Shown here: positions 16,429-29,219 of the stretch, piece after piece
How the letters are laid out: each line of letters begins with the position of its first letter
Position numbering within the stretch: position 1 is the stretch's first letter
From: a virus
DNA: 39,294 nt
IMG/VR virus record: IMGVR_UViG_3300042309_001715
Span: 1 to 39,294 of that record
Direction: 5' to 3' (one strand)
The notes under the pieces: generated by a model
Told to the model about the DNA's origin: nothing
The model's input: only the letters and a program-made list of their open reading frames with translations
Database searches by the model: none
Position numbers and translations under genes: made by a program

Positions 16429-16971
16429 ATGAACACAGAACAAGCATCCAACTCAGTGCAGCCCGTAGGCAAAGCCATAGCGGGCGCAATCGTCAAGGCG
16501 CAAATGGCTTTCGGGCCAGCCTTGAAGACCTCACAGAACCCGCATTTCAAAAGTCGCTACGCCGATCTGTCGGCCTGCGTCGAAGCGGTCATCGAAGCCC
16601 TTAACGCCAACGGCATCGCGCTCATCCAGCGCACCTTGCCATGCGAAAGCGGCGTCACGGTCGAAACCGTCTTCCTGCATACGAGCGGGGAGACAATGAG
16701 CAGCGGCCCGCTGCACGTTCCCGCGCAGAAGCAAGACGCACAAGGCTACGGTTCCGCGCTGACCTATGCCCGCCGTTACTCGCTCATGGCGGCTTGCGGT
16801 ATCGCCCCGGAAGATGATGACGGCCACGCCGCATCAAAGCCCGTGACCTACGTAAAACCAAGCAAGCCCGCCCCGCGCATCACGGACGAGGCACCCAAAG
16901 AATCTAACGGCCAACGCTCGGCAAAAGCAGCGGTCGCTACGAACGAGGCAGACGACGATCTGCCTTGGTAA
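16429..16971 (+). CDS. erf: ERF-family single-strand annealing protein, 180 aa
   Basis: ATG 16429 follows the hairpin. Residues 12-125 match the ERF superfamily: GKAIAGAIVKAQMAFGPALK, NPHFKSRYADLSACVEAV, and the diagnostic 'AQGYGSALTYARRYSLMAACGIAPEDDDGH'. ERF proteins anneal single strands for phage recombination and genome circularisation. The C-terminus is a disordered linker ending in EADDDLPW, which closely resembles the acidic tip of bacterial SSB. That tip may recruit host repair proteins (inference). It works with the neighbouring nuclease and SSB-like protein. Confidence 0.85.
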   Translation: MNTEQASNSVQPVGKAIAGAIVKAQMAFGPALKTSQNPHFKSRYADLSACVEAVIEALNANGIALIQRTLPCESGVTVETVFLHTSGETMSSGPLHVPAQKQDAQGYGSALTYARRYSLMAACGIAPEDDDGHAASKPVTYVKPSKPAPRITDEAPKESNGQRSAKAAVATNEADDDLPW

Positions 16972-16989
16972 TCAACACAAACACAAAAC

Positions 16990-21338: not shown

Positions 21339-22381
21339 AAAAGCCAGCCTGCGCCTGGAGCCTGGCAGACCTTGAAGCTGTCCCGAAAAACGGCATCAAA
21401 GTCATGTCCACGTTTGCTTGCGGGGGCGGGTCAACGATGGGCTATAAGCGGGCCGGATGCGAAGTCATCGCGGCTAACGATATTGACCCGCAAATGGCGT
21501 GGCACTATCAGCACAACCTCAAGCCCAAGCATTATTTCCTGTGCCCAATCCGCGACTTGCTAACGGCCAATCTGCCGTCCCAATTATTTGAGTTGGATAT
21601 TCTCGACGGCTCGCCGCCGTGCTCAACTTTCAGCATGGCGGGCAGCAGGGAAAAAGCATGGGGAAAGAAAAAACATTTCCGTGAAGGACAGGCCGAGCAA
21701 GTGCTGTCCGATTTGTTCTTTGACTACCTTGATCTTGTCGCGCATCTCAAGCCGAAGGTTGCCATAGCCGAAAACGTCAAGGGCATGATCCTTGGCAATG
21801 CCAAGGGCTACACCAAACTTGTAATGCAAAGATTCCGGGAGATTGGCTACCGGCCCCAGCTATTTCTTTTGAACTCTGCCGATTGCGGCGTGCCGCAAAG
21901 ACGGCAGAGAGTTTTCTTTTGTGCTCTGCGTAACGACATGCAAAAGCCGCTACTTTCAATTAGTCCAAGAGGACGGTGGGTTTCAACAAGTGAAGCGTTT
22001 ACAGGATTAGAAATTTTAACAGATGCAGAAAAGAAAGACACACAGCCAACAGGAATTGATCTAAAGGCTTGGAGCAAGACAAAGCCCGGAGGGTGCTACG
22101 CTGATTATTTCAATAAGTTTGAAGGGCGGAACAATGCTTTCTCGCACCAGAAAGCGCATCCAAATCAACCATCGTGCACCCTTACAGCTACGCACGACAA
22201 CTTTACACATTACAAAGAGTGTCGGAAAATGACATTCCGCGAGTGGAAGCGCATAGGCTCTTTCCCAGACGACTACCAAGCACAGTCCGACAAGATTGGC
22301 AAATACATGATTGGCATGAGCGTGCCGCCAAAGATGACAGAAGTTGTGGCCCGCGCCGTTGTTGAGCAATGGCTGCAATGA
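21335..22381 (+). CDS. C5-cytosine DNA methyltransferase, 348 aa
   Basis: All main motifs are present. Motif I is FACGGGSTMGYKRAG (about 27-41). Motif IV is DGSPPCSTFS with catalytic C96. Motif VI is ENV (146-148). Motif VIII is QRRQRVFF (188-195). Motif X is near the C-terminus (IGMSVPPKMTEVVARAV). The enzyme methylates cytosine and probably shields phage DNA from host restriction. DNA from about 21950 to 22160, coding for the target-recognition region, is markedly more AT-rich than the neighbours, a sign of transfer or swapping. Unusually, it sits between TerS and TerL. Confidence 0.9.
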   Translation: MKKPACAWSLADLEAVPKNGIKVMSTFACGGGSTMGYKRAGCEVIAANDIDPQMAWHYQHNLKPKHYFLCPIRDLLTANLPSQLFELDILDGSPPCSTFSMAGSREKAWGKKKHFREGQAEQVLSDLFFDYLDLVAHLKPKVAIAENVKGMILGNAKGYTKLVMQRFREIGYRPQLFLLNSADCGVPQRRQRVFFCALRNDMQKPLLSISPRGRWVSTSEAFTGLEILTDAEKKDTQPTGIDLKAWSKTKPGGCYADYFNKFEGRNNAFSHQKAHPNQPSCTLTATHDNFTHYKECRKMTFREWKRIGSFPDDYQAQSDKIGKYMIGMSVPPKMTEVVARAVVEQWLQ

Positions 22382-24174
22382 GTCTCACCGAAGAACTTGA
22401 CCGGAGCTTGCGCGATGTCTTCGCGCCCATCGACGCGCGCGAGGTGTGGGAGTGGGCGGAAGATGAGATTGTGCTGACGCGGCAGCAAACGGAAACGCCG
22501 GGGCCGTATAGCACGCTGCTGACTCCCTACGTGCGCGAGCCGCTTAATGCTTTTGCCGATCCGCGCGTGAGTGACCTTGCTCTGTGCTTTGGCAGTCAGA
22601 CCAGCAAAACCACAACGATGATGATCGGAACCGCATGGCGGCTGGTCAACAATCCGGTGCCGACGATTTGGGTCATGCCAAGCGAAAGCCTTGCGCGGTC
22701 ATTTAGCGAGAACCGCTGGCAACCGATGGTGAAAGATTGCGGCAAGCTCGCCGCGCTCAAGCCGTCAAACGCTCACAGGTTCAAGAATCTTGAGCAGCAA
22801 TTCCGCGACTGCACGCTGACTTTTATCGGGTCAAACAGTCCGTCAAATTTGGCGTCTCGCCCTGCTGGACTCTTGATTATGGACGAGGTCGACAAGATGG
22901 CCGATGCCTCCGAAAAGGAATCATCCGCCGTAGCCTTGGCCGAAAACCGCACTAAGAGCTACACCAACGCGCTGCGGGTTAAGTCTTCGACCCCGACCAC
23001 CCCGGAAGGAGAAATCTGGCAAGCCTTTCAGCAAGGCGACCAGCGTTTCTATTTCGTCCCGTGTCCGCATTGTAACGCCATGCAACGCCTGCTCTGGGGG
23101 CAAGTAAAGTGGGACACCGCCGCGCGCGGGGAAGACGGCGCGTGGAACGAGGACGCCGTGCGGGCCACAGCCTTCTACGAGTGCGAGTCGTGCAAGGGCA
23201 AGATCACAGACGGACACAAGACGCGAATGCTTCGCGCCGGGGAGTGGCGAGCGACAAACCCTAACGCCGCTGCCGGTAGGCGCAGCTATCACCTCAATTC
23301 GCTCTACGCGCCGTGGCGGTCGTGCGGCTTTGGTGAGCTTGCCGTTATCTTCCTGCGGCAAAAGGCTTCGCTCCTTGGCCTGCAAGATTTCGTCAACGGC
23401 GCGCTGGCCGAGCCGTGGGTCGAGGACGCCGACAAGGAGCAAGAGGTCAAGACCGCCGCCAGCGATTACCTTTCCGGGGATCGTTGGGACGAGGCCGAGT
23501 TTTCCGCAATGACCGTGGACGTTCAAGATGCAGGCGGTCGCCACTTCTGGGCCGTCATCCGCGATTGGTCAAAGGACGGACGCTCGCGCGGAAGATTTGC
23601 GGGCCGCATTGAAACGTGGGATGACTTGGAAAAGCTACGCGAGGAACATGAGATCCGCCCGCCGTGCGTCTTTGTCGATTCCGCCTTCGCCTCGCGGGAA
23701 GTTTATTTTGCCTGTTGCCGCTTCGGCTATGTCGCCCTGCGCGGGAGCGACAACGAGAGTTTCACGTGGAACGATAACGGGCGCAAAGTGCAACGCGCTT
23801 ACGCTCGCCCGGAGCGCGGCGATCCTGCGGGCGGCGGAAGATGGGACGCTGGGACGCTCGCGCGCCGAACGTGTCCGCTCATTAAATTTTCCGCGCCAAC
23901 GTGCGAAGATATTTTAGACGCACTACGCCGCGCCGATCCGGTGCGCTGGGAGTTCCCGAAAGACTTCCCGCTTGATTGGCACGAACACCTCGCAAGCACA
24001 GTGAAGAAGCGCACACGCAACGCGATTACCGGAGCGGTCAGCTACAAATGGATCGTCGTGAAGGGGAAGCCGAACCACCTGCGCGACTGCGAGAAAATGC
24101 AGGTCGTGGCTGCGTTGTTGGCGAAGGTCTTAACCCCCGCCGCCGAGCGCCCCAAAGAGAAGGCGACCCCGTAA
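22378..24174 (+). CDS. terL: Large terminase subunit, GpA family, 598 aa
   Basis: ATG 22378 chosen for the ATGA overlap; ATG 22369 would add three residues. Walker A is GSQTSKTTT (72-80) and Walker B is LLIMDE (165-170), with the DEVDKM form common in lambda gpA-type terminases. CPHC...CESC Cys pairs (about 222-266) form a zinc site seen in that family, and 'TVDVQD' near 380 begins the nuclease domain. The protein pumps and cuts genome DNA at the portal. The family implies cos-type packaging. It is followed by a cargo island instead of the portal. Confidence 0.92.
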   Translation: MSLTEELDRSLRDVFAPIDAREVWEWAEDEIVLTRQQTETPGPYSTLLTPYVREPLNAFADPRVSDLALCFGSQTSKTTTMMIGTAWRLVNNPVPTIWVMPSESLARSFSENRWQPMVKDCGKLAALKPSNAHRFKNLEQQFRDCTLTFIGSNSPSNLASRPAGLLIMDEVDKMADASEKESSAVALAENRTKSYTNALRVKSSTPTTPEGEIWQAFQQGDQRFYFVPCPHCNAMQRLLWGQVKWDTAARGEDGAWNEDAVRATAFYECESCKGKITDGHKTRMLRAGEWRATNPNAAAGRRSYHLNSLYAPWRSCGFGELAVIFLRQKASLLGLQDFVNGALAEPWVEDADKEQEVKTAASDYLSGDRWDEAEFSAMTVDVQDAGGRHFWAVIRDWSKDGRSRGRFAGRIETWDDLEKLREEHEIRPPCVFVDSAFASREVYFACCRFGYVALRGSDNESFTWNDNGRKVQRAYARPERGDPAGGGRWDAGTLARRTCPLIKFSAPTCEDILDALRRADPVRWEFPKDFPLDWHEHLASTVKKRTRNAITGAVSYKWIVVKGKPNHLRDCEKMQVVAALLAKVLTPAAERPKEKATP

Positions 24175-24205: not shown

Positions 24206-24265
24206 AAAAAAAGATGAAAAAAGGTGAAACTTTTCCCTTTACAAAGACAAGCGCTTGGCTTAACT
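24206..24265 (+). promoter_or_regulatory. Promoter P2: A-rich tract plus palindromic spacer, predicts near-leaderless mRNA
   Basis: A 29-nt A-rich tract (24206-24234), identical to 26059-26087, precedes TTTACA (24238-24243). The 16-nt spacer is followed by a weak -10 (TTAACT, 24260-24265). The 18-bp palindrome AAGACAAGCGCTTGGCTT (24244-24261, one mismatched pair) fills the spacer. The ATG at 24276 is only 10 nt after the -10. Confidence 0.6.
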
Positions 24266-24275
24266 TGGCGGGGTA

Positions 24276-24521
24276 ATGAAAACACAGAACACACCGACCG
24301 CCACCATCCAAACCGCCGCCCGTTACGTCAGCCGCAGCATTTGCGACCACAACTGTTTCTTTGAGTTGTTTGTTATCAAACGCACGGCCAAGACCGCGAC
24401 CATCCGCTACAACGGCGAAATCCGCCGCACCAAGATTAAGGTCGATTGCAGCGGCTTCGAATACCTCCGGCCCGATGATTACAGCATGGCACCGATTTTC
24501 CGCGCAGAGTGCGCGGCTTAA
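24276..24521 (+). CDS. Small hypothetical protein, cargo island, 81 aa
   Basis: ATG 24276 opens with MKTQNTPTATIQTAARYVSR, then a beta-rich part (CFFELFVIKRTAKTATIRYNG). The start region ATGAAAACACAGAAC matches that of the gene at 27030. It lies immediately behind promoter P2, so it is probably expressed on its own. The family is unknown. Small proteins of this style flank DUF932 genes in mobile elements. Confidence 0.6.
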   Translation: MKTQNTPTATIQTAARYVSRSICDHNCFFELFVIKRTAKTATIRYNGEIRRTKIKVDCSGFEYLRPDDYSMAPIFRAECAA

Positions 24522-24541
24522 ACCACAACAACACACAGAAA

Positions 24542-24555
24542 GAACACAGAACATG
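24542..24555 (+). promoter_or_regulatory. A/C-rich start leader GAACACAGAACATG
   Basis: Exact copy of the 14-mer at 16990-17003, here before the DUF932-like gene, with the start codon as its last three bases. A second AACACACAG lies just upstream. No Shine-Dalgarno motif is present. Confidence 0.5.
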
Positions 24556-25302
24556 ATCAGCACATTAGAAACCATCGGATCGCTTAACCTCGATCCCGTC
24601 ACCGCCGAACACGGCGCAACAACGGTCAGCAATCGTTACGGGTTCATCTCGACCCAGACCTTGCTGGATAACCTCGCAACCGAAGGATTCACCCCGCGCG
24701 CCGTGCAGGTCGCTCGCGTGAACAAGCAGGAACGTCAAGGCTTTCAAAAGCACATCGTTCGCTTGCAGCACAACGACATGATGCCGATGCAGCTAAATGA
24801 GTTTCGGCCCGAAATCGTGCTGGTCAATTCGCACGATGCCAGCACGAGTCTTAAACTCATGCTCGGTATGTTTCGCCTCGTTTGCACCAACGGTCTTGTC
24901 ATTGGCGAGTCTGTTTTCTGCCATCGCTTCATTCACCGCGACATAAACGTCGAGAGTGTGAACACGGCTGCAGTGAGCCTTACGCAAATGCTCCCGCAGC
25001 TTGAGGAGCGCGTGAGCGCGATGAAGGCCCGCACGATGACGCAAGCAGAGACGGATCGCTTCAATAAGCAAGCCGCCCTGCTTCGTTGGGATGACGAGCA
25101 GAAAGCCGCACAAGCTGCTTGGTATCTGGGCCGTGGCCGTAGATACGAAGACGGACAAGACAACCTATGGCACGCCTACAATCGCGTGCAGGAAAACATG
25201 ATCAAAGGACGGCGCGGCAGTATCCGCCGTATCACCAGCGCGGCCAAGGATGTCGAAATCAACCGCGACCTGTGGAACCTCGCGGCGGGATTCCTCAACT
25301 AA
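24553..25302 (+). CDS. DUF932 family protein, 249 aa
   Basis: ATG 24553 follows the A/C-rich leader. The sequence (YGFISTQTLLDNLATEGFTP, EIVLVNSHDASTSLKLMLGMFRLVCTNGLVIG) carries the core of DUF932, a family of phage- and plasmid-encoded proteins of unknown function. These are often found next to methyltransferases or antirestriction genes. The C-terminal half is helical and basic. Its presence with a ParB-like and a C5-methyltransferase gene upstream suggests a counter-defence or DNA-protection role (inference). Confidence 0.8.
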   Translation: MISTLETIGSLNLDPVTAEHGATTVSNRYGFISTQTLLDNLATEGFTPRAVQVARVNKQERQGFQKHIVRLQHNDMMPMQLNEFRPEIVLVNSHDASTSLKLMLGMFRLVCTNGLVIGESVFCHRFIHRDINVESVNTAAVSLTQMLPQLEERVSAMKARTMTQAETDRFNKQAALLRWDDEQKAAQAAWYLGRGRRYEDGQDNLWHAYNRVQENMIKGRRGSIRRITSAAKDVEINRDLWNLAAGFLN

Positions 25303-25311
25303 CCAAGCACA

Positions 25312-25336
25312 GGCGGGGAGTCCGATCCTCCCCGCC
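25312..25336 (+). other. Intergenic hairpin (mRNA punctuation)
   Basis: GGCGGGGAG/CTCCCCGCC, 9-bp perfect stem, 7-nt loop TCCGATC, 9 nt after the DUF932 stop. No T-run. The loop resembles that of the hairpin at 26688-26706 (TCCGACC). Confidence 0.5.
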
Positions 25337-25347
25337 GCCTTACCACA

Positions 25348-25533
25348 ATGAACATCAACGAAATCGCCATCGCCGCCGCGCACTTTAACGCGGCTCACGA
25401 CTACGATCTCCCGTCCGCTCTCAAGCTGACCGAGATCGTGATTCGCCACGCGCACCTCGTGCAACTGGCCCGCATCCAAGCCGCCGATCCGCAACTTGAG
25501 TTGCCTATCGACTTAAACGGGGAGGCGGCATGA
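25348..25533 (+). CDS. Small hypothetical protein, 61 aa
   Basis: ATG 25348 after the hairpin and a TTACCACA leader; the sequence (MNINEIAIAAAHFNAAHDYD, ALKLTEIVIRHAHLVQLARI) is all-helical and acidic at the end. Coupled by ATGA to the next gene. Unknown family; it belongs to the island between terminase and portal. Confidence 0.55.
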   Translation: MNINEIAIAAAHFNAAHDYDLPSALKLTEIVIRHAHLVQLARIQAADPQLELPIDLNGEAA

Positions 25534-25673
25534 AACCCGACAAGATCATTCCCTTCCCTATCAAGCCCGCCGCCCCCAAGCCCGTGCTTGACGAGGCCGA
25601 GCCGCAGAACATCATCGTGGTCGAGTTCGACCGGGACGAGTATATCGTGACCGCCAGCCCTTACGCCGTATGA
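25530..25673 (+). CDS. Very small hypothetical protein, 47 aa
   Basis: ATGA overlaps at both ends define it: MKPDKIIPFPIKPAAPKPVL, then a short acidic beta hairpin (QNIIVVEFDRDEYIVTASPYAV). The exact coupling on both sides and an SD-like GGGGAGG before the ATG support translation. No function assigned. Confidence 0.55.
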   Translation: MKPDKIIPFPIKPAAPKPVLDEAEPQNIIVVEFDRDEYIVTASPYAV

Positions 25674-25864
25674 AACCACACCCACTTGACCGCTACTCGG
25701 CCCTCGACCGAGCGATTGGCAAACGCATTACCCTGTCCTTCGGGGCATGGTTGGAAAAGTGCGAGCGCAGCGATGCGTGGCATGGCAGCGATCACGAACC
25801 GACCCTTGAGAACGTCAAGGCGTTCCTCGACGATTACGCCGATTGGCAGGAGGAACCTGTATGA
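25670..25864 (+). CDS. Small hypothetical protein, 64 aa
   Basis: ATGA overlap with its neighbours. The protein is mixed helical (YSALDRAIGKRITLSFGAWL) with an acidic C-terminus (NVKAFLDDYADWQEEPV). No motif or membrane segment. The acidic tail would fit a DNA-mimic or interaction protein, a loose inference. Confidence 0.5.
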   Translation: MKPHPLDRYSALDRAIGKRITLSFGAWLEKCERSDAWHGSDHEPTLENVKAFLDDYADWQEEPV

Positions 25865-26028
25865 GTGACGCCATCAGCAAAGCCGCCGCCGCCCTCGGCA
25901 AGAGGGGCGGGCAGGCGGGGACGGGCAAGGCCAAGGCCCGCAGCAAGGCGCATTACTCCGAAGCGGGGAAGAAGTCCGGGGAGGTTCGCCGCCTCCGGGC
26001 GCTTCAGCGCAAGGGGGCGACAGGGTAA
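25861..26028 (+). CDS. KGG-like small basic protein, 55 aa
   Basis: ATGA overlap. 'AAALGKRGGQAGTGKAKARSK' and 'YSEAGKKSGEVRR' resemble the Gly-Gly-rich basic repeats of stress-type KGG-motif proteins. I also recall related sequences among small genes of verrucomicrobial and proteobacterial mobile elements. It is disordered and basic, so nucleic-acid binding is plausible. It ends the coupled four-gene set before promoter P3. Confidence 0.55.
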   Translation: MSDAISKAAAALGKRGGQAGTGKAKARSKAHYSEAGKKSGEVRRLRALQRKGATG

Positions 26029-26058
26029 ATACCCTGTTTTCAAGGGGTTACAGGGTCA

Positions 26059-26117
26059 AAAAAAAGATGAAAAAAGGTGAAACTTTTTCTTGCATACGCC
26101 AGCGGCTGGCGTATTAT
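26059..26117 (+). promoter_or_regulatory. Promoter P3: perfect 21-nt palindrome as spacer/operator, near-leaderless
   Basis: An A-rich tract identical to that of P2 (29 nt) is followed by TTGCAT (26090-26095), a 16-nt spacer and TATTAT (26112-26117). A perfect palindrome with 10-bp arms around a central G covers 26094-26114, overlapping both boxes. The ATG at 26127 lies 9 nt past the -10, so the transcript would start about 3 nt before it. Confidence 0.7.
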
Positions 26118-26126
26118 GGGGGAGTA

Positions 26127-26363
26127 ATGAAAACACAAACAGCAAAAACTATCAGCCTCGATTCGGGGTTGGAAATCACGACCTACCGCAACAGCAAAAC
26201 GGGCGACACCCTATGTGTTCACCACAACGATTGCGGCGCGTATTACGGCGAACTGGTGCAAGCCAGCGATCCCCGCAAAACCAAACAGCGCGTAACAACT
26301 CAACAGGTCAACGAGCTAATCTCCTACTGGCATTATGAATTCGGGGGTTGCTCCATCGACTGA
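26127..26363 (+). CDS. Small hypothetical protein, 78 aa
   Basis: ATG 26127 chosen because it directly follows promoter P3; an upstream in-frame ATG at 26067 would lie inside the A-rich tract. N-terminus MKTQTAKTISLDSGLEITTY, then 'KTGDTLCVHHNDCGAYYGELVQA', beta-rich. No family known. Its N-terminus resembles those of the genes behind P2 and P4, suggesting a common expression context. Confidence 0.6.
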   Translation: MKTQTAKTISLDSGLEITTYRNSKTGDTLCVHHNDCGAYYGELVQASDPRKTKQRVTTQQVNELISYWHYEFGGCSID

Positions 26364-26371
26364 CTTCCCTC

Positions 26372-26394
26372 CCGCCCTGCCACGTGCAGGGCGG
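26372..26394 (+). other. Intergenic hairpin (mRNA punctuation)
   Basis: CCGCCCTGC/GCAGGGCGG, a perfect 9-bp stem with loop CACGT, 8 nt after the preceding stop and before the A/C-rich leader of the next gene. No T-run follows. Confidence 0.5.
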
Positions 26395-26422
26395 CATGGG
26401 ATGCCAAACGGCAAACCACAAC

Positions 26423-26436
26423 GAACACAGAACATG
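26423..26436 (+). promoter_or_regulatory. A/C-rich start leader GAACACAGAACATG
   Basis: Third exact copy of the 14-mer, ending with the start codon at 26434. It follows a hairpin, as at 16393-16441, giving the order stop, hairpin, A/C leader, ATG. Confidence 0.5.
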
Positions 26437-26679
26437 ACAACATTAAGCAAATCAGTAACCCGCAAAGCAATCACTCGGCCCGCCGCCCACGGCGTGCGCG
26501 CCGAGCTTATCATCGCCCTTCATCCGGGCGGAATCGTAGGCATCCGCGAGTGCGGACGGCGCAGCAAGAGCGAAGTGCATTTCGATGCAGCCGAGCTTTA
26601 CGTCGAGGGCATCCGCAGGCGCATCGCCAACCAACGCGCCGACAAGCGCAAGGCGCGTCTCGCCCGCCGCAAGAAGTAA
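26434..26679 (+). CDS. Small basic hypothetical protein, 81 aa
   Basis: ATG 26434 at the end of the A/C-rich leader. Core beta strands (GVRAELIIALHPGGIVGIRECG) are followed by 'EVHFDAAELYVEGIRRRIAN' and a strongly basic C-terminus (RKARLARRKK). It is probably a nucleic-acid-binding protein of phage origin. Unknown family. Its stop lies 8 nt before a further hairpin and promoter P4. Confidence 0.6.
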   Translation: MTTLSKSVTRKAITRPAAHGVRAELIIALHPGGIVGIRECGRRSKSEVHFDAAELYVEGIRRRIANQRADKRKARLARRKK

Positions 26680-26687
26680 GCCCCGGC

Positions 26688-26706
26688 GCAGGGTCCGACC
26701 CCCTGC
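26688..26706 (+). other. Intergenic hairpin (mRNA punctuation)
   Basis: GCAGGG/CCCTGC, 6-bp stem with 7-nt loop TCCGACC, lies between the previous stop and promoter P4. The CCCCCCC and TAAAAATAAAT that follow are not a proper T-run, so termination is possible but not clear. Confidence 0.45.
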
Positions 26707-26724
26707 ACCCCCCCTAAAAATAAA

Positions 26725-26764
26725 TGAAAATAAATCTTGCATACCCCAGCGGCTGGCGTATAGT
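26725..26764 (+). promoter_or_regulatory. Promoter P4: P3-type operator with one base change, near-leaderless
   Basis: TTGCAT (26737-26742), 16-nt spacer, TATAGT (26759-26764). The 21-nt palindrome at 26741-26761 is the P3 operator with one base altered. The upstream 14-mer TGAAAATAAATCTT is identical to that at 14349-14362 (early promoter). The ATG at 26774 lies 9 nt past the -10. Confidence 0.7.
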
Positions 26765-27029: not shown

Positions 27030-27326
27030 ATGAAAACACAGAACACCACAACGGGCGCGGGGAATACCACTGCCGCGCAGAACATTTACCGCGCAAGCAT
27101 CGACACCAAGGTTGTCGGCCACTTCCCTTCAATGTCGGCAGCGATGAAGGTGCTGACCGCTGCGGCGATCAAATCCGCGTTCGGCTACAATGGCTACGTT
27201 GATGTCTTCGACCCGAACGACGAGATCATGCCGGGTAAGGGTGCAGAGGCTGACGGCTACAAGTGCATAAGGCATCGCGTGGTCGATGGCGGGCGCGGCA
27301 ACAGCGGATGGTTTTGGAACGACTAA
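27030..27326 (+). CDS. Small hypothetical protein, 98 aa
   Basis: ATG 27030 after an ACACACACA leader; the 5' end ATGAAAACACAGAACAC matches that of 24276. Residues about 20-55 (NIYRASIDTKVVGHFPSMSAAMKVLTAAA) form a compact alpha/beta unit. The C-terminus is Gly/Trp-rich. Unknown family. Likely cotranscribed from P4. Confidence 0.55.
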   Translation: MKTQNTTTGAGNTTAAQNIYRASIDTKVVGHFPSMSAAMKVLTAAAIKSAFGYNGYVDVFDPNDEIMPGKGAEADGYKCIRHRVVDGGRGNSGWFWND

Positions 27327-27339
27327 CCGAGGACGCACA

Positions 27340-27537
27340 ATGACCAAGACACACAAACTCACCCGCAAGCACATCGCCAGCGAATACGCAGACAGCGATG
27401 GCTACTGGATCGACCTCAAGGCCGGATGGCGTTGGGAGGGCGATCACGTTCACGGCATCCACGAAGACACACGCAGCGCGGCCTATGCCGAGCGCGTGAT
27501 TGCCTGCGGCTGCGCTCAATGCAAGGATGCGGTATGA
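27340..27537 (+). CDS. Small hypothetical protein with C-terminal Cys pair, 65 aa
   Basis: ATG 27340 in a GAGGACGCACAATG context. 'TRKHIASEYADSDGYWIDLKAGWRW' and 'GDHVHGIHEDTRSAAYAERV' are followed by CGCAQC, a possible metal knuckle. It overlaps the next gene by ATGA, which begins with another CPHC pair. No known family. Confidence 0.55.
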   Translation: MTKTHKLTRKHIASEYADSDGYWIDLKAGWRWEGDHVHGIHEDTRSAAYAERVIACGCAQCKDAV

Positions 27538-27701
27538 AATGCCCACACTGCAACAAGACCCTGCCCGCGCACATCGTGGACACCCGCGCAACCGGGAGCA
27601 AGGGAGGCAAGGTCAAGTCGCCGCTCAAGGCCCGCAGCAGCGAGCAGGCCCGCGCCGCCATCATGGCCCGATGGGCCAAGCACAAGCGTCCTGCCATTTG
27701 A
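27534..27701 (+). CDS. Small CPHC basic protein, 55 aa
   Basis: ATGA overlap. It begins MKCPHCNKTLPAHIVDTRAT and continues with a basic, disordered segment (GSKGGKVKSPLKARSSEQAR) and a helix ending WAKHKRPAI. One CxxC alone cannot make a zinc ribbon, but a dimer or partner could. The KGG-like stretch echoes the gene at 25861. Confidence 0.5.
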   Translation: MKCPHCNKTLPAHIVDTRATGSKGGKVKSPLKARSSEQARAAIMARWAKHKRPAI

Positions 27702-27742: not shown

Positions 27743-28372
27743 GTGCCGCCCGGAGTCGTGATAACCCACGATTCCAAACACGCTGACCCCGCTGATTACA
27801 ACGAAGCATCCTGCGGCCCGGAACTGCCGCACGATACTGCGGAAGATTTATTTTTAGACGCTCGCTGTCGCGTAGCCGCTCCCGCGCAGCTTGCGTCTTT
27901 CCGCGCCCTGCTGGATTGGTGGTCGCTCGAAATCTTCCGCGAGTTCTGGAAAGACTACGAAGCGCAGGAAGGCGGGGGCCAAGCCTCGCGCACCTTCGGG
28001 GATGAAGCGGCAATTCGCCTCTTACAAGCGTTGACCAACTCGCAGACACGGCAGACTGCGATGAAAGCGGAGTGCTACTTAGCCGTGATCAATCGCAAAC
28101 CGGAAAGCCAGACCGAGATTGCCAAGAAATACGGCGTGACCCGTGCCGCCGTCTCCAAGGTCATCGTCAGCATCAAAGACGATCTCGACCTCCCCACCGC
28201 GCGGCACATGAAGTCTGACACCGCCCGCGAGTCATATCGAACCCGCGCCCTGCGGGTTCACCAAATACGCAAAGAAAAATTATGCAAACAACCGAACAAC
28301 AACTCGTTCACGAAGTTCTGGGCTTCGATGTCCAGCAACTTGAAACCGCCGATGCCTGCGCCGAGCAACTAA
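27743..28372 (+). CDS. HTH-containing protein, possible late regulator, 209 aa
   Basis: GTG 27743 is the first start in frame. Residues 60-110 are helical and aromatic (FRALLDWWSLEIFREFWKDYEAQ). Residues near 136-160 (TEIAKKYGVTRAAVSKVIVSIK) are a clear helix-turn-helix of the sigma/Trp-repressor type. The C-terminus after residue 180 runs 91 nt into the next gene and looks non-native (KQPNNNSFTKFWASMSSN). It could be a DNA-binding packaging factor or a transcription regulator of the head genes; TerS is already assigned elsewhere. Confidence 0.6.
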   Translation: MPPGVVITHDSKHADPADYNEASCGPELPHDTAEDLFLDARCRVAAPAQLASFRALLDWWSLEIFREFWKDYEAQEGGGQASRTFGDEAAIRLLQALTNSQTRQTAMKAECYLAVINRKPESQTEIAKKYGVTRAAVSKVIVSIKDDLDLPTARHMKSDTARESYRTRALRVHQIRKEKLCKQPNNNSFTKFWASMSSNLKPPMPAPSN

Positions 28373-28960: not shown

Positions 28961-28973
28961 GTTTGGCAAAAGC

Positions 28974-29219
28974 ATGGCGCGTTCCGACTTTTACGGCTTA
29001 CCAACCGCGACTCTTACTGAGTTGCGCGACGAGTATGTCGCCGCCATCAAAGCGATTGCCACCAATGGCGTCAGCTATTCCATCGGCGGGCGCAGCCTGT
29101 CCCGCGCCAATCTCACGGAGATGCGGAACACGCTTGGCGACATTACTGCCGCTATCGACCGCGCTTCCGGTAGCCGCCGCCGCACGACCTACGCATCCTT
29201 CGCGGGCGTCCGCTCATGA
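28974..29219 (+). CDS. gpW-like head-joining protein, 81 aa
   Basis: Position directly before the lambda-type portal gene (ATGA overlap), size, and helical content (LTELRDEYVAAIKAIATNG, LSRANLTEMRNTLGDITAAI) match gpW-like head-tail joining proteins. In lambda, W follows A and precedes B, exactly as here apart from the cargo. It stabilises filled heads for tail attachment. The middle 'VSYSIGGRSLSR' is a typical hairpin. Confidence 0.75.
   Translation: MARSDFYGLPTATLTELRDEYVAAIKAIATNGVSYSIGGRSLSRANLTEMRNTLGDITAAIDRASGSRRRTTYASFAGVRS

Follow-up and report, generated by a model that had tools for sequence, protein, structure and literature searches.

The DNA analyzed here is IMG/VR virus record IMGVR_UViG_3300042309_001715, a stretch of 39,294 nucleotides (nt) that we refer to as the window and on which all positions are counted. 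Between the gene for the large terminase subunit, TerL, and a gene that we take, by its position and not from a database match, to resemble phage lambda gpW, the window contains an accessory-gene (moron) island that extends from the TerL stop codon at 24174 to position 28973. This island contains three promoters, P2, P3, and P4, each with a palindrome (dyad) that fills the spacer, and the genes of two small basic proteins, KGG1 and KGG2 (Table 1). The same promoter was found in more than 100 IMG/VR contigs, again within a moron island between TerL and the gpW-like gene. Comparison of these sequences establishes that the promoters and their insertion site are conserved, that the operator-like dyads fall into two classes, that the distance to the start codon is nearly fixed, and that each class is associated with its own KGG protein.

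Table 1. Features of the island and of its flanking genes (aa, amino acids; bp, base pairs)
Feature	Position	Strand	Description
TerL, large terminase subunit	22369-24174	+	Left neighbor of the island; 43 relatives by tblastn; resembles annotated large subunits of terminases
A-rich/T-rich tract upstream of P2	24205-24234	+	May serve as an UP element; region upstream of P3 identical over 29 nt
Promoter P2	24238-24265	+	-35 TTTACA 24238-24243, 16 nt, -10 TTAACT 24260-24265; ATG 24276
P2 operator-like dyad	24244-24261		AAGACAAGCGCTTGGCTT, 18 bp, one mismatched pair
P2 dyad, invariant core	24248-24257		CAAGCGCTTG
P2 gene, 81 aa	24276-24521	+	CA-rich start ATGAAAACACAGAACACA; family 5, homologues behind P2- and P3-type promoters elsewhere
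DUF932 gene, P2 operon	24553-25302	+	Pfam PF06067, E 5e-34; match of unknown function
KGG1	25861-26028	+	Basic protein of 55 aa; encoded last in the P2 operon; candidate regulator for operators of the P2 type
Promoter P3	26090-26117	+	-35 TTGCAT 26090-26095, 16 nt, -10 TATTAT 26112-26117; ATG 26127
P3 dyad	26094-26114		Perfect, 21 nt; promoter and dyad conserved in relatives
P3 gene, 78 aa	26127-26363	+	Near-leaderless (predicted)
Promoter P4	26737-26764	+	-35 TTGCAT 26737, -10 TATAGT 26759-26764; ATG 26774
P4 dyad	26741-26761		21 nt, single base change relative to the P3 dyad
P4 gene, 78 aa	26774-27010	+	Family 9; L108 homologue behind a P2-type promoter
Gene with N-terminal tag	27030-27326	+	Tag MKTQNTTTGAGNTTAAQ; possible stem-loop GCGCGG/CCGCGC 27055-27078; other tag carriers: L004, L009, L018, L019, L026, L030, L033, L048-L063
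KGG2	27534-27701	+	Basic protein of 55 aa, zinc-ribbon-like; encoded downstream of P3/P4; candidate regulator for operators of the P3 type
gpW-like head-joining gene	28974-29219	+	Right neighbor of the island; assigned by position, not from a database match

A preliminary description of this DNA had placed the three promoters at these positions, with palindromes of 18 bp (P2) and 21 nt (P3 and P4, one base apart), a 29-nt tract common to the regions upstream of P2 and P3, and -10 boxes 9 to 10 nt before the ATG, all of which is borne out by the sequence. The palindromes are real and not due to chance: at up to 3 mismatches, the 25-nt P3 sequence matched in the window only at P3 and P4, with 0.00 matches expected in shuffled sequences. 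The promoter hexamers are weak, as TTGCAT and TTGACA have just 3 of 6 positions in common, and the P2, P3, and P4 sites are not listed by a scan for the sigma-70 consensus; the case for these promoters hence rests on conservation and comparison and not on the consensus. In the alignment of the relatives, a 17-nt spacer followed by a -10 element of the form TAnnTTG is the better reading of most P2 sites. A search of Rfam gave no match.

To compile related loci, we used (i) a tblastn scan with the TerL of the window, which provided 43 relative loci, (ii) a second scan with the TerL of the P3-type phage L055, which provided 78 loci, and (iii) motif scans for P2-type and P3-type promoters, which added further loci. 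Cleaning resulted in 64 distinct promoter-gene junctions, or 63 after the exclusion of the doubtful L077, an unrelated locus that matches a relaxed P3 pattern. These 63 junctions lead into 34 unrelated families of downstream genes. In the relatives selected by TerL, occupied junctions have the promoter directly after TerL, and in most of the 43 loci of the first scan the TerL stop codon is followed by a block composed of the A-rich tract, TTTACAAA, CAAGCGNTTG, CTTAAATTG or CTTTATCTTG, and then the ATG. The A-rich tract upstream of P2 is kept in most relatives and missing in the L120-type variant. Searches among named phages and plasmids revealed no relative of the promoter beyond one plasmid match at chance level.

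The occupied junctions contrast with about 40 loci of a related lineage, found in the scan with the L055 TerL, in which the junction is empty: the promoter is missing, and the gpW-like gene begins 21 to 67 nt after the TerL stop codon. At other loci, islands of 0.45 to 5.6 kb are inserted between these two core genes, the smallest of which (~450 bp) consist of the promoter, one gene, and KGG2. As judged from sequence, the TerL/gpW-like junction is laid out like an insertion hotspot for morons, and the earlier claim of a cargo island is supported. As in phage morons, the island has a promoter of its own, apparent as a conserved promoter-like block at its left end, it is inserted at a core junction that is empty in relatives, and a clear terminator separates TerL from the promoter in L022 and L024; the difference from morons is that a single promoter/start/tag module stands before dozens of unrelated genes, with at most 3 promoters per island. 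At L131, L132, L138, and L166, the junction holds another insert of ~920 bp that has neither dyad nor KGG gene, possibly with an HNH gene in the opposite orientation.

Two operator classes were distinguished, namely, the P2 type, CAAGCGNTTG, and the P3/P4 type, TACGCMAGCNGCTKGCGTA, in which the center base is free. In 17 distinct 21-mers of the P3 type, taken from the sample collected by TerL only, 8 of the 10 arm pairs were Watson-Crick pairs in at least 16 sites, the center was any of A, C, G, and T, and the outermost pair had changed from A-T to C-G in 3 sites. A free center base between rigid symmetric arms indicates, as a sequence signature, a dimeric DNA-binding protein. In the P2 sites of the relatives, only CAAGCGNTTG is invariant. 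The palindromes are thus kept in related phages, on which the preliminary description had made its proposal depend, and its view that they occupy a repressor-type position between -35 and -10 is supported by the operator-like dyads found there. The single coordinated regulon under one palindrome that it had proposed is not supported, as the dyads fall into two classes, each matched to a candidate regulator of its own. We consider it hardly credible that the palindromes arose by chance in moron promoters of an ordinary, constitutive kind. L029 and L031 do have a dyad-free promoter, TTGACC-16-TAATCT, at the same place, so that the dyad is not needed for the promoter there, but none was expected in shuffled sequences, and this explanation is already contradicted by conservation, since almost every site of the sample that was drawn irrespective of the dyad has kept it. 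At L022, two extra copies of CACAAGCGGTTG lie at 16688 and 16745 in minus-strand coordinates, 57 nt apart in similar surroundings and away from promoter-gene junctions.

Both KGG proteins are short, basic, and unannotated; they share K/RGG and KAR motifs and are usually encoded at the end of the operon. We counted their association with the operators over 56 non-redundant junctions, and operator class and KGG class agreed in all 56. (i) In complete islands, P2-type sites occurred with KGG1 (17/17) and P3-type sites with KGG2 (17/17). (ii) In the window, the two types of site occur together with the two KGG proteins. (iii) L181 combines a hybrid operator, TTGCAAGGCAAGCAGCTTGTGTTAG, with a chimeric protein whose zinc ribbon is KGG2-like and whose tail is KGG1-like. 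(iv) Junctions without a dyad had neither KGG protein (20/20); these were scored as 13 empty and 7 occupied, and the reassignment of two of the latter, L148 and L149, as empty junctions with a GTG start leaves the association unchanged. Where an island has a second P2 promoter, this promoter lies ~64 nt after the stop codon of KGG1 (5 checked cases). Among 388 Verrucomicrobiota genomes, only two KGG1 homologues were found, in G013 and G236. In G013, on a contig of 12.5 kb, the homologue belongs to an operon behind TTGACT-TACTCAAGCGGCTTGTG-TAACTTG; a later pattern search was built from this site, and its uniqueness reflects rarity and is not an independent prediction. No KGG homologues were found among named phages.

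The dyads could also be operators of a regulator encoded elsewhere, namely, a repressor of the host or one that the phage encodes outside the island, with the KGG genes as linked cargo. This is unlikely in our opinion, even though the KGG proteins have no recognized DNA-binding domain, since a class-matched association with KGG would be unexpected for an outside regulator. In addition, the dyads have no further copies elsewhere in the window, 14 long records that were searched contained at most 3 sites of one pattern each and in some cases none, and P2-like sites are rare (4 matches) in the 388 genomes of Verrucomicrobiota, the probable host group. In favor of an outside regulator, the P2 core CAAGCGNTTG would fit the LacI-family pattern AAnCGnTT. 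A host regulon was rejected, as the P2-type motif and the tag described below were not enriched in the 388 genomes.

The preliminary description had named two ribbon-helix-helix proteins (14086 and 14419) and a winged-helix protein (11749) as regulators. No link between these and the dyads was found: the dyads do not recur near their genes, and the proteins were present in only 4 to 6 of the loci compared, in large part because most loci stop short of that region. The candidate regulators lie instead inside the island (25861-26028 and 27534-27701). A helix-turn-helix (HTH) protein encoded at 27743-28372 was also rejected, as it is present in the dyad-free L029 and L031; this HTH-like protein on the right side of the island is kept in 56 loci, including dyad-free islands, and is perhaps the small terminase subunit.

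In place of a repressor, the dyad could serve an activator or be a feature of the spacer that is tied to a dedicated sigma factor. With their weak hexamers, such promoters might need help; we nevertheless judge this improbable, because spacers of 16 to 17 nt are ordinary and because the free center and the rigid symmetric arms point to a dimeric protein. MerR-type promoters have a spacer of 19 to 20 nt that holds the dyad, and MerR-type activation was rejected, as the spacers found here are too short.

The distance between the end of the -10 element and the start codon was 6 to 11 nt in the 63 distinct junctions, which places the expected start of transcription at most a few bases from the start codon. 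This geometry supports the earlier proposal of near-leaderless transcripts, the start sites being predicted from it. The fraction of A+C at positions +4 to +24 had a mean of 0.85, with one gene per family considered, as compared with 0.61 in 25 other genes of the window. CA repeats after the start codon are described, where PMC9031893 and PMC3879156 cite Martin-Farmer and Janssen (1999), as enhancing the translation of both leaderless and leadered mRNAs. The junctions resemble leaderless mRNAs with a downstream CA-rich enhancer in that the start codon is at or near the predicted 5' end and is directly followed by CA-rich codons; they differ in that the 5' ends are predicted and that some genes add a GC-rich stem-loop or the tag TGAGNTTAAQ. 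A Shine-Dalgarno-like sequence was present in 4 of 25 non-cargo genes checked in the window. Three internal genes without a Shine-Dalgarno sequence, at 16981, 24533, and 26414, share the CA-rich leader GAACACAGAACATG.

The tag TGAGNTTAAQ occurs in a subset of genes; in near-identical peptide and DNA form, MKTQNTTTGAGNTTAAQ, it is fused to the N termini of many unrelated small proteins, with or without a promoter in front. Its DNA can form a six-pair stem, and all six pairs are kept in 20 of 22 variants, including one fully compensated change. This pairing is suggestive of more than a purely peptide feature, and only suggestive, given the GC-richness and the few events.

Identity between families was ~0.5 to 0.86 over the promoter and the first 20 coding nt, intermediate up to +50, and at background (~0.27) beyond +60; conservation ends in the first ~50 nt of the coding sequence. 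Families 0, 1, 5, 9, and 12 were found behind both promoter types, and in families 7 and 12 one gene body occurs with differing starts and tags. Since identity is confined to promoter and start while the same families occur behind both promoter types, the promoter-start block is a unit that is exchanged independently of the genes. The block might be mainly a recombination linker for gene swapping, with the promoter conserved as a passenger, which would agree with the 34 cargo families joined at one point, the Erf-like annealing protein encoded in the window, and P3-type linkers, mostly with the same intergenic start TAAAACCCCCAAAATCAAGGGG, after TerLs of several divergent lineages. Against this, the pattern of conservation is that of a promoter with its dyad, with a free center base and a fixed distance to the ATG, and the dyad survives the loss of the A-rich linker in the L120 type. 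We give little credence to a linker in place of a promoter; a linker role is probably true in addition. At L075, L076, L078, L087, and L004, TerLs of divergent lineages are followed by P3-type promoters with mostly the same linker, TAAAACCCCCAAAATCAAGGGGTTAG, as if both sides had been exchanged at a shared boundary.

Taken together, these data lead us to favor, with somewhat better than even confidence, an autorepressed moron operon that works in the acr-aca manner, with near-leaderless CA-rich mRNAs and a KGG protein as the repressor. The accessory operons sit as insertions at the junction of TerL with the gpW-like gene. There, RNA polymerase would use a -35/-10 pair with a spacing of ~16 to 17 nt and start 0 to 4 nt from the start codon, and the CA-rich first codons of the resulting near-leaderless mRNAs would favor initiation. 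A KGG dimer, KGG1 at P2-type and KGG2 at P3/P4-type promoters, would bind the spacer dyad and shut the promoter. The operon would thus fire on phage entry and then damp itself; such early expression with subsequent self-shut-off fits as well as a lysogenic-versus-lytic switch.

In known acr-aca operons, the core promoter contains an inverted repeat as the Aca site, the aca gene lies downstream in the operon, and Aca proteins autoregulate the acr operons (PMC9410906). The islands share with them small variable phage accessory genes, a core promoter that encloses an inverted repeat, a small gene for a candidate regulator farther along the same operon that is matched to the repeat class by position and association, and several regulator families with a site each (PMC9410906). 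They differ in that the Aca proteins of PMC9410906 are HTH proteins, whereas no HTH was detected in KGG1 or KGG2 by matches to Pfam, NCBIfam, or PHROG or in the low-confidence models, and in that near-leaderless starts are not a described acr-aca feature. The KGG proteins were not filed as Aca because the defining HTH was looked for and not found, and the likeness is, by analogy, one of mode of working and not of membership. No known acr genes were identified, and none of the promoter-proximal cargo proteins encoded in the window gave a useful match in Pfam, PHROG, or NCBIfam.

A number of observations weigh against repression by the KGG proteins. (i) The outer arms of the P2 dyad are asymmetric in most relatives, and the weak hexamers are compatible with activation instead. 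(ii) No family in Pfam, NCBIfam, or PHROG matched KGG1 or KGG2 above a usable cutoff, and their predicted models are of low confidence (predicted local distance difference test scores of 71 and 67) and have neither an HTH nor a ribbon-helix-helix fold; their putative DNA-binding role hence rests on association and charge. (iii) The KGG1 homologue of G236 has no such dyad upstream, and the gene in G013 has a leader of ~60 nt, so that leaderlessness is not part of the operator-KGG pairing. (iv) P2/KGG1 and P3/KGG2 largely track phage lineages and may be co-inherited. Independent association events are few (the window, L181, and G013), because operator and KGG gene lie in one inserted unit, and this shared descent is the main weakness.

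Somewhat more tentatively, and at slightly less than even odds, KGG1 and KGG2 may form a new repressor family whose members are tiny, are encoded in the operon, and have no known DNA-binding fold, with at least two specificity classes that co-diversify with operators filling the spacers of near-leaderless moron promoters; they would mark an unexplored hotspot of phage accessory genes. Signs of such co-diversification are the hybrid operator and chimeric protein of L181 and the L120 group, in which CTACGC..GCGTAG operators occur with a distinct KGG2 variant. The hosts are probably Verrucomicrobiota, since TerL has a relative at 51% in a Verrucomicrobia metagenome-assembled genome and matches an Akkermansia phage TerL at 34%. 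No counter-defense genes are known in these phages, and the operator together with the KGG gene would provide a sequence handle to find cargo, in parallel to the use of aca genes to find anti-CRISPRs. The dozens of genes that share one predicted leaderless start context would furthermore provide a natural set for the study of leaderless translation and a matched operator-repressor series.

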